From positions 1 through 33,249 of the forward strand of contig JAIRNH010000011.1 of the NCBI GenBank assembly GCA_031258155.1: 33,249 bases of DNA. The letters run 5' to 3'. The stretch comes from Helicobacteraceae bacterium. GTDB taxonomy: Bacteria; Campylobacterota; Campylobacteria; Campylobacterales; SZUA-545. Numbering within the stretch: position 1 is the first letter of the stretch; the number at the start of each line of letters is the position of its first letter. Shown here in pieces: positions 1 through 2,500 of this stretch. Below the pieces are notes generated by a model. That model had not been told where the DNA came from. It did no database searches and saw only the letters and a program-made list of their open reading frames with translations. The position numbers were made by a program, and so were the translations under genes.

Positions 1-19
1 CGGTTTTTGAAAACGCCAA

Positions 20-48
20 AACCGCCGCGCCTATAAAGCGCGGCGGTT
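20..48 (-). terminator. Hairpin terminator after the TonB-dependent receptor
   Basis: A perfect 11-bp inverted repeat (AACCGCCGCGC at 20-30 and its complement at 38-48) encloses a 7-base loop. On the minus strand the stem is followed by a short T run (TTTT then GCGTTTTC). It lies about 55 bp past the stop codon of the receptor gene, so a Rho-independent terminator is the natural reading; the T run is short. Confidence 0.6.
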
Positions 49-102
49 GTTTAACGCCCTAAAATATAACGGGCGGCGGCGTTCAAACCTCTATGGCGTT
101 AG

Positions 103-2365
103 CTAAAAGTCGGCGTTAACGCCGACGGTAAGCCTTCTGCCTTCTAGCGTCTTTCCGTGCGTGGCGCTTGTAACCTCTTTGTTGGCGACGTTATACACGC
201 CCGCTAAGAGCTTCACGCCGTCTTTGAGACGAATCACCGTCCCCATATCCACAAAATCGTAAGACTTGTTGGTCGCGGGCGAAGTAGCCGTCGTCTCGAG
301 ATACTTGCCTCTGTAGTTGTATTGCGCCCAAAGAGCAAACCTCGCGGTAACGTCAAAATCGACGTTCACGTTATACATGTGCTTCGAGATCGCGTTTAGC
401 GCTTTGCCTTTGTTGGTTCCCGTTTTTTGCTCGCTGTCGGTATGGGTGTAGGTCGCGGCTACCGAAACAATCGACGGCAGATTGTAGTTTAAGGTAACCT
501 CGATCCCTTCGAGTTCCGCTCCTTCTACGTTGTGATACGTGCTACCGCTTGAATAGGGTCCTCCGTTTAGGTCTAAAACGGGGTCTGAGAAAGAACTGCC
601 ATAGTAGGCTTCGTAATAATCTTTGGAACCCTGCGTGCAAAAGGGTATTCCGTCGCTTCGCAACGCCGCGTTGTTACCGCCGCCGTTGCAGACTGCATAC
701 GACTCGATTTTATCTTTGAAATCGGTGTGATAGGCGGTTAGGCTCGCGCCAAAACCGATCGCCTTATTGTCGTAAGCTACCGACGCTTCGTAACTTATGC
801 TAGATTCGGGGTCTAGATCGGCGTTGCCTATCGTTACGTTGGGAGGATACGCCCCTCCGCCGGACACGCTGCCGAAATCGTTAGATATCTGTCGTATGGA
901 CGGGGTTTTGTATCCGCCGGAAACGCCGCCTTTAACGACGACCTCGTCGATCGGGTGATACACCGCGTAAAGGCGCGGGGTTATATGCGCGCCGTAATCC
1001 TCGTCGTGATTTAGCCTAACGCCGCCCGTTAAAGCCAGATTATCCAAAATATTCCACTCGTCCTCGGCGAAAATAGCGTATTGATCTCTATCGATCTCCA
1101 TCGACTTATACTTCCACGTATTATTGCCCGTTACATTGTATTCCGCGCTAAGCACGTTCGAGCCAATATCGTCGAGCATTTCGTTTCTATACTGGGCGCC
1201 GACGGTCAGAATGTTCGTATCGAAGTAATACGTCCCCTGCGTATTAAGCGTCAACACCTCGTAAAAAATGCCGTCTCCCCGAGGATTTTCAGTAGCCGCT
1301 TTTTGAATATAGGTGTTTAGCGCGAAATCGTCGAGTTTCAGATCATGCCCCGCGGATGCGGTCTGTTTAACCGACATCGAGCCTGATCGCCCGGCGCCCC
1401 ACGCGGTATTAGAAACGCCGGCGGTCGCCGCTCTTTCTTGCCTTGAATAGTCGTAAGCCGCCCACGCGCTATTGGCTTTGTTGATCGCCCAAATAGCTTT
1501 GGCGCCGACCTGCCTGTTGTCATAGCGCGCCGCGGGCGCGGCGGCTTTGTCTCCGCAAGCGTTGTTGGTTCCCAGCGCAAGCAGCTCCTCCGGGCAGTGT
1601 TGTTCGTCCACGCCTAGAACCGATCCGTAAGCCTGCAAGGACAATAGGTCTTGCACAATGGGTCCCGCTATATTGAGGTTGCCCGAATAACCGTCTTGCG
1701 TAACGTCGCTTAGGGTTTTTGTGTATTCGCTCTTAAAACTGCCAGACCATTCGCTAGGAACTTTCTTGGTGATAATGTTGATAACGCCGCCTATGGCTTC
1801 CGAGCCGTAAAGCGAGGACATAGGACCTCGCACAACCTCGATCCGCTCGATCATAGAAACGGGAGGCAGAGCGCCTACGGCTACGCCGCCGCCCGTAGCG
1901 TTGGGGCTGTTGGCGTCGTTGCCCTGCATTGGTTTGCCGTCGATTAAGTAGAGCGTATAGCCGCTAGTCATACCGCGAATGGATATGTCTTTATATACGC
2001 TGCCGCCCGTTATATAAATGCCGGGTACGTTTTTAAGAACGTCGGTTAGATCGTTGAAGGATTTCTTCTCCAACTCCTCGCGCGCGATTACAAAGACGCT
2101 TGCGGGGGCGTCGGCTATATTCTGTTCGTAACCCGCCGCGCTGACGACTTTAATTTCGTCAAGCTCCGTTACGTCGTCGTCCGATTTTGCTCTCGTGGGA
2201 GCTGTTGTTGTTTGGCTTGATTGCGTTACGGCGGCTGGAGCGCCGTTTGATTCAGTCGATTCGTCGTCGGCTACTATAGGCAAGGCGAGGCTTAGCGCCG
2301 TTATTAGAGCTAAAAGCCCCCCCCCCCCCCGTCATGCTAGGATTTACGCTGATTGCGTTTGCCAT
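103..2365 (-). CDS. TonB-dependent outer-membrane receptor, CfrA/catecholate-siderophore type, phase-variable and out of frame here
   Basis: Outer-membrane active transporter that takes up a ferric siderophore or similar ligand using TonB energy. A TonB-box-like segment (DEIKVVSA) precedes a plug domain with DAPASVFVI, VPGIYITGG, DISIRGM, YLIDGKP and IERIEVVRGPMSSLYGSEAIGGVINI, followed by a beta-barrel ending in a C-terminal Phe, as outer-membrane proteins do. The plug resembles Campylobacter CfrA-like enterobactin receptors; the ligand is inferred only. An uninterrupted frame begins at a TTG at 2283, but the codons just upstream encode a signal-peptide core (LLALITALSLALPIVADD). The real start is probably ATG at 2365 (a second ATG is at 2335), 5 bases after AAGGAG. 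Between start and core lies a 14-G run (2317-2330): with 13 or 16 G the frames join, with 14 they do not. As given the gene is OFF, or the homopolymer was miscalled. Confidence 0.88.
2317..2330 (-). repeat. Poly-G tract (14 G), contingency locus in receptor signal peptide
   Basis: Fourteen consecutive C on the plus strand, so 14 G in the sense of the receptor gene, placed between the ATG codons (2365 and 2335) and the hydrophobic core of the signal peptide. From the 2365 ATG there are 35 bases before the tract; 35+13 is divisible by three and restores the frame into LLALITALSLAL, while 35+14 reads into a TGA within about 20 codons past the tract. Homopolymeric G tracts changing by slippage are the known phase-variation mechanism in Campylobacter and Helicobacter. 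Confidence 0.85.
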
Positions 2366-2412
2366 GGTTACTCCTTTTGATTTTGAGAATTAAACCAAAT
2401 TTCTCGCGTGGA

Positions 2413-2440
2413 ATAATAGCGAAATATAACCTTAAAGCAA
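2413..2440 (-). promoter_or_regulatory. Candidate sigma-70 promoter for the receptor
   Basis: On the minus strand TTGCTT (2440-2435) is followed after 16 bases by TATTAT (2418-2413), about 50 bp upstream of the ATG at 2365. No convincing Fur box was found by eye, though iron control would be expected for this receptor type. Confidence 0.4.
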
Positions 2441-2500
2441 GATAAAACCGCGCGCGGATTTAGTTCGCGCGTTTAATTTTGCGGCGTTTAGGCGTTATCG

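Follow-up and report, generated by a model that had tools for sequence, protein, structure and literature searches.

We describe a CirA-like TonB-dependent receptor gene of a Helicobacteraceae bacterium in which a run of 14 G lies within the signal-peptide coding region. The gene is on a 33,249-nt stretch of DNA (the window), which is contig C11 of genome G000 (1.94 Mb, 71 contigs). The explanation that fits best, and in which we have considerable confidence, is that this is a contingency locus where slippage in the poly-G tract would give translational phase variation. Under this model a promoter and a strong Shine-Dalgarno-ATG pair would start a short n-region, and the mRNA would then cross the hypermutable G tract into a downstream frame supplying the signal-peptide core and a receptor of CirA/FepA type. 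Replication slippage would add or remove G residues. At tract lengths (n) of 1 mod 3 (10, 13 or 16) the complete precursor would be made and exported (ON), whilst any other length, the assembled 14 among them, would end translation at some 37 residues and leave the outer membrane without receptor (OFF). Slippage in living cells and loss of the surface protein in the OFF state are what we infer. The benefit would be escape from bacteriocins or phages, or the sparing of an unneeded catecholate-siderophore receptor.

A single open phase upstream of the receptor

The earlier note had placed a poly-G tract inside the signal peptide of a TonB-dependent receptor. The gene lies on the minus strand, and we count exactly 14 G there (14 C on the plus strand), a number that, like any homopolymer length assembled from short reads, could be off by one or more (Table 1). 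The tract begins 35 nt after the ATG, that is, after 11 codons and two bases. At this length the ATG frame yields MANAISVNPSMTGGGGAFSSNNGAKPRLAYSSRRRID and then a stop, a 37-residue dead end that misses the receptor just as that note had said. The receptor frame itself opens at CTT 2316 (CTT TTA GCT...) and encodes LLALITALSLALPIVA followed by DDES. The ATG frame joins it at n = 10, 13 or 16, giving MANAISVNPSMTGGGGLLALITALSLALPIVA followed by DDES. At n = 14 and n = 15 a TGA or TAG lies in the receptor frame directly upstream of the tract, and because these stops close that frame only one phase out of three is open. The joined product had also been credited with a proper signal peptide. This is right for the core and the cleavage region and wrong for the n-region, since the ON form MANAISVNPSMTGGGG lacks Lys and Arg, in contrast to MTDANGVSLKTTNKRGGG (KTTNKR) in the paralog on contig C17. 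Moreover, the n-region of the tract-free relative G003, MTNAKGAINRGAGRLAGRLLALVTALICLNAPAIADE, carries basic residues, unlike the window ON form.

Table 1. Positions of the features of the receptor locus in the window
Feature	Position	Strand	Basis
Receptor 3′ end and terminator region, identical to C17:1-118 (118/118)	1..118	.	comparison
Mature CirA-like TonB-dependent receptor (N-terminal linker, plug, beta-barrel), uninterrupted	106..2268	-	Pfam, PDB
TGA closing the ATG frame at n = 14 (OFF)	2252..2254	-	
Signal-peptide core and cleavage region, LLALITALSLALPIVA	2269..2316	-	translation; 58/60 nt identical to C17
TTG, sole other near-5′ start in the receptor frame; within the signal peptide, no Shine-Dalgarno	2281..2283	-	
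Poly-G tract, 14 G	2317..2330	-	read directly
5′ switch module, upstream part common to C51 (94% over 158 nt)	2317..2474	-	
Coding part of the n-region, MANAISVNPSMT, no Lys/Arg	2331..2365	-	
Second ATG, same frame as the first, 11th codon	2335-2333	-	
ATG start, switch frame	2363..2365	-	
Shine-Dalgarno AAGGAG, 5 nt upstream of the ATG	2371..2376	-	
-10-like element TATTAT	2413..2418	-	alignment; inferred

The same AAGGAG precedes the ATG of C17, of a gene on contig C1 and of the related locus L035. Further upstream, a TAnnAT sequence occurs at the position aligned to the TATTAT element in C17, C1 and the related genomes G001 and G003. A strict-consensus promoter scan gave nothing above chance on the receptor strand and did not recover this element. 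Between the -10-like element and the Shine-Dalgarno lies an inverted GAGAA...TTCTC (window 2385-2405, minus strand). Similar sequences, with varying spacing, are present in C17, G001 and G003, and the repeat is a possible operator.

The receptor body is intact

The receptor is ~700 residues long, with its last coding position at 106 and the stop codon at 105-103. Pfam Plug and TonB_dep_Rec_b-barrel were both matched over cut-off. CirA (PDB 2hdf, 9nn6) was the best sequence match (E 1.4e-79, 28-29% identity); unlike E. coli CirA, in which we know of no tract, the window receptor carries one. CirA also led the fold search (E 1.5e-51; TM-score on target 0.86; model of moderate pLDDT, 70), ahead of PfeA and FepA. 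Together, the domain matches, alignments and fold model identify the protein as a TonB-dependent receptor of CirA/FepA type with a plug and a predicted 22-strand barrel. The NCBIfam CirA score was 305 against a cut-off of 745 bits, and the CfrA and IreA equivalog cut-offs were likewise not reached; therefore we do not assign the receptor to any one of them. Going by its relatives, it may bind catecholate siderophores. E. coli CirA is the receptor for colicin I and microcin V, and by analogy with this nearest solved relative the window protein might serve as an entry point for phages or bacteriocins. Our search of a phage collection returned distant receptor-like matches only.

The window copy is out of frame as assembled, yet a frame of 726 codons has been kept. 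Against every relative its pN/pS was 0.37-0.43, a ratio that says little on the very recent past since synonymous sites are close to saturation. By this measure, coding constraint is retained in the window copy.

A paralog in the opposite phase and a repeated module

The same genome holds a paralog, C17, with G11 at the same point and the same downstream signal peptide, and this copy is ON. The two 5′ modules are identical at 57/58 and 58/60 nt on either side of the n-region and tract, whereas the receptor bodies share 65% amino acid identity (35% of residues differ; dS 0.89). The 3′ ends are again identical (Table 1). Moreover, contigs C15 and C30 end in sequence that matches window positions 1-107 exactly, and the 3′ flank repeat extends there to 216 nt at 99% identity. 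The near-identical ends around divergent middles in the C11/C17 pair appear to point to recombination or gene conversion.

The upstream half of the module recurs on contig C51, which begins exactly at its own C14 tract (C51:1-157; L071, L170). Window 2317-2397 (81 nt) is 100% identical to it, and past 2474 the flanks are unrelated. The C51 copy adjoins a U32-peptidase-like gene. On C1 a copy of 76% identity, comprising promoter, Shine-Dalgarno, G12 tract and signal peptide in OFF phase, precedes a non-receptor secreted protein (C1:11198-11324; L084, L142). We rejected the C1 gene as a third receptor paralog since its body is not a TonB-dependent receptor, and it has no relative in 15 related genomes. 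Thus the arrangement of promoter, Shine-Dalgarno, tract and signal peptide is found at four loci (C11, C17, C51 and C1). With ends this alike, assembly from short reads may have paired the wrong halves, and as C51 starts at its own tract with the 81 identical nt, the two sides of the C11 tract could belong to different loci. The frame logic holds nonetheless, because the upstream halves of C11 and C51 are identical and the C11 and C17 tracts are both 2 mod 3.

Tracts in related receptors occur in both phases

The same-genus relatives are 'Helicobacteraceae bacterium' MAGs, L104 (the same locus as G003) and L130 (G001), which we read as coming from termite guts on the basis of isolate codes, accession series and the termite-gut MAG literature (PMC9137090). 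Tract-bearing relatives span the genus, the family, termite Campylobacteraceae and two cultured Arcobacteraceae, and their tracts of 8-14 G vary in place, lying within the signal peptide or immediately behind it. ON phase was seen at L034, L106, L116 and L128, and OFF phase at L035, L101, L108, L131, L133 and probably L032, in addition to the window and C1. Among the individual cases, G001 (n = 13) is OFF for its nearest ATG, which has no clear Shine-Dalgarno, and a farther ATG would be in frame; G004 is ON at n = 14, with the tract directly after the signal peptide; and G011 is OFF at n = 12. The termite-associated Campylobacteraceae include L101 (n = 11, OFF), L106 (n = 8, ON), L116 (n = 9, ON) and L108, which at n = 14 is OFF at its ATG and would be in frame from GTG/TTG starts. 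L131 (n = 14, OFF) has GTG/TTG starts only and no ATG. The isolates Arcobacter vandammei and Aliarcobacter vitoriensis, both n = 9, are ON and OFF, respectively. As tracts are present in isolates, they are not an artefact of metagenome assembly.

Other relatives lack a tract (L104, L102, L103, L107 and L109-L112), as do the receptor relatives of the gammaproteobacteria Pseudomonas, Acinetobacter and Xenorhabdus. The tract-free L105 (4001 onward) has an in-frame stop after 166 residues and a match continuing over the whole protein, possibly a frameshift. On a quick receptor tree, from which no direction was inferred, a minimum of 6 changes in tract presence is needed, and the sister pairs L101/L102 and G001/G003 differ in it. 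Tract positions run from the n-region through to where the core ends, which makes several of the gains look independent.

Long G runs are in excess across the genome

A first-order Markov model of the window predicts 1e-5 G/C runs of at least 14. No run in 200 simulations exceeded 9, and the second-longest run in the window is 5. In 156 kb of the genome, runs of length 5, 6, 7 and 8 numbered 62, 6, 1 and 0; since this sequence was picked around tracts, the count of long runs in it is not a rate. Genome-wide there are 55 runs of at least 9 against about 2 expected, and the distribution of run lengths is bimodal. Of these, 33 are internal, with lengths of 9-19, and the other 22 are no more than 150 bp from a contig end. 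For example, C52 ends in G72 and C5 has four C runs in 77 bp. The contig-end excess may reflect assembly breaks at variable tracts or a sequencing artefact, and these runs were left out of the tally. We rejected the reading that all 55 are artefacts, given the 33 internal tracts, which have coding context on both sides.

Many of the internal tracts stand at genes for surface structures. The products of tract-bearing genes include two acyltransferase-3 proteins, GT2 glycosyltransferases, an O-antigen ligase, FkbM and TylF methyltransferases, a subtilase and another two TonB-dependent receptors. At 13 loci (7 ON, 6 OFF) a Shine-Dalgarno start and a tract are followed by an open frame of at least 120 codons. 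The genome encodes six Plug-domain proteins: in four a tract of at least 9 stands close to the 5′ end, a fifth has G8 and the sixth has no tract. In a second type of TonB-dependent receptor the poly-G lies between signal peptide and plug (C53:12200-12214, ON at G15; C12:1201-1211, ON at G11; C54, L139, with G8). A lipoprotein-like gene (C19:91949-91958; L089) has G10 within its signal peptide (MRVANKR-G10-LALLAVVSAATLFTLVGC) and is in OFF phase.

Tract abundance and mismatch repair

We compared the number of G tracts of at least 9 with the presence of a full-length MutS1-like protein in 60 Campylobacterales genomes (G000-G059). At least 10 tracts were found in none of 33 genomes with the protein versus 17 of 27 without (Fisher 2e-8, a value that ignores kinship). 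In the family of the window, the protein is present in genera g2, g3 and g7, which have 0-1 tracts. It is missing from g1 and g6, which have 26-61, and also from g4 and g5, which have 1. Aliarcobacter vitoriensis (G073), with the protein and 32 tracts, is an exception. MutL was absent at cut-off in all 60 and so does not discriminate. A link with the MutS family was proposed from few genomes in the A. butzleri genome paper of 2007 (PMC2147049), where the protein is called MutS2, so its orthology to the MutS1-like protein counted here needs checking. The inverse relation across Campylobacterales makes that conjecture testable (PMC2147049).

Alternative explanations

The assembled tract could be an assembly or sequencing error, the true one being fixed in frame at 13 and the receptor constitutive. 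Homopolymer lengths are error-prone, and with so many tracts at contig ends, one of them G72, some artefact is possible. However, the window tract is internal, both its flanks are common to paralogs and relatives, and the corresponding genes in other assemblies, isolates included, have other lengths and phases. Even a swap of tract lengths between C11 and C17 (both 2 mod 3) leaves the upstream half of the window OFF and that of C17 ON. We therefore see only a small chance that this is the answer. A frameshifted pseudogene on its way to being lost is very improbable: such an allele would be out of frame, as the assembled one is, and might well have an n-region devoid of Lys and Arg, but here 726 uninterrupted codons follow, pN/pS is about 0.4 and a one-base change in the tract restores the frame.

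Expression itself might overcome the frameshift. Long homopolymers can slip in transcription or translation, and since n = 14 differs from an ON length by a single base, RNA polymerase or ribosomes slipping on it would give a steady low level of in-frame receptor, the tract then setting a level rather than acting as a switch. We consider this unlikely as a substitute for DNA slippage, to which it would add. We give next to no credence to the TTG at 2283 as a source of receptor whatever the tract length. At n = 14 the receptor frame offers no earlier start codon, but this TTG lacks a Shine-Dalgarno and its product begins at LPIVA-DDE; with the signal-peptide core lost, this product could not be exported. 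We thus retain phase variation by poly-G slippage. ON/OFF control by tract length, which the earlier note had proposed, is strongly supported by comparison, with the paralog ON and the relatives in both phases.

Comparison with known systems

The mechanism is already known. The haemoglobin receptors HmbR and HpuAB of Neisseria meningitidis have a poly-G within the ORF and are ON at one of three length classes, as measured in isolates (PMC3786947). The window likewise has a poly-G in the ORF of a TonB-dependent receptor and one ON class in three; it differs in its unrelated lineage and receptor subfamily, and is known from sequence alone. The position within the signal peptide also has precedents in oipA and bab. 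In H. pylori, bab, sab and oipA carry CT repeats in the signal-peptide coding region, and gene conversion moves the repeat-bearing 5′ end of bab among paralogs whose ends are conserved and whose middle varies (PMC4552749, PMC10564699). The window and C17 resemble bab in the site of the repeat, the near-identical ends and the divergent middles, whereas the repeat is G rather than CT and the protein is a TonB-dependent receptor rather than a Hop adhesin type. At most, then, the pair may work like bab; it is not a bab/Hop member.

The Campylobacter poly-G phasome (PhasomeIt), in the passages of that paper covered here, comprises sugar transferases, methyltransferases, a DUF2172/M28-type protein and surface proteins (PMC6321876), and G000 shares with it the phylum, the repeat type and the kinds of target gene. 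These passages make no mention of TonB or siderophores (PMC6321876). A literature search that covered few subscription journals found no paper describing TonB-dependent receptors with poly-G tracts in Campylobacterota. Novel here are the lineage, the CirA-like receptor, the recurrence of tracts within that receptor and the hint of a shared switch module.

Significance

To our knowledge, work on poly-G phase variation has been confined almost entirely to pathogens of humans and animals. A large poly-G repertoire with switched siderophore receptors in termite-gut Campylobacterota means that host immune escape is not required as an explanation. Bacteriocins, phages and shifting iron sources are alternative candidate selective agents, and they are testable. 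Recurrent tracts at differing points of the same signal-peptide region suggest convergent selection for switching this receptor. It is possible, if rather doubtful, that the segment from promoter through Shine-Dalgarno, ATG and poly-G to signal peptide is an exchangeable switch cassette, reassorting receptor bodies through the near-identical ends. If true, this would amount to combined phase and antigenic variation of siderophore receptors in insect symbionts, with switches flipping independently.
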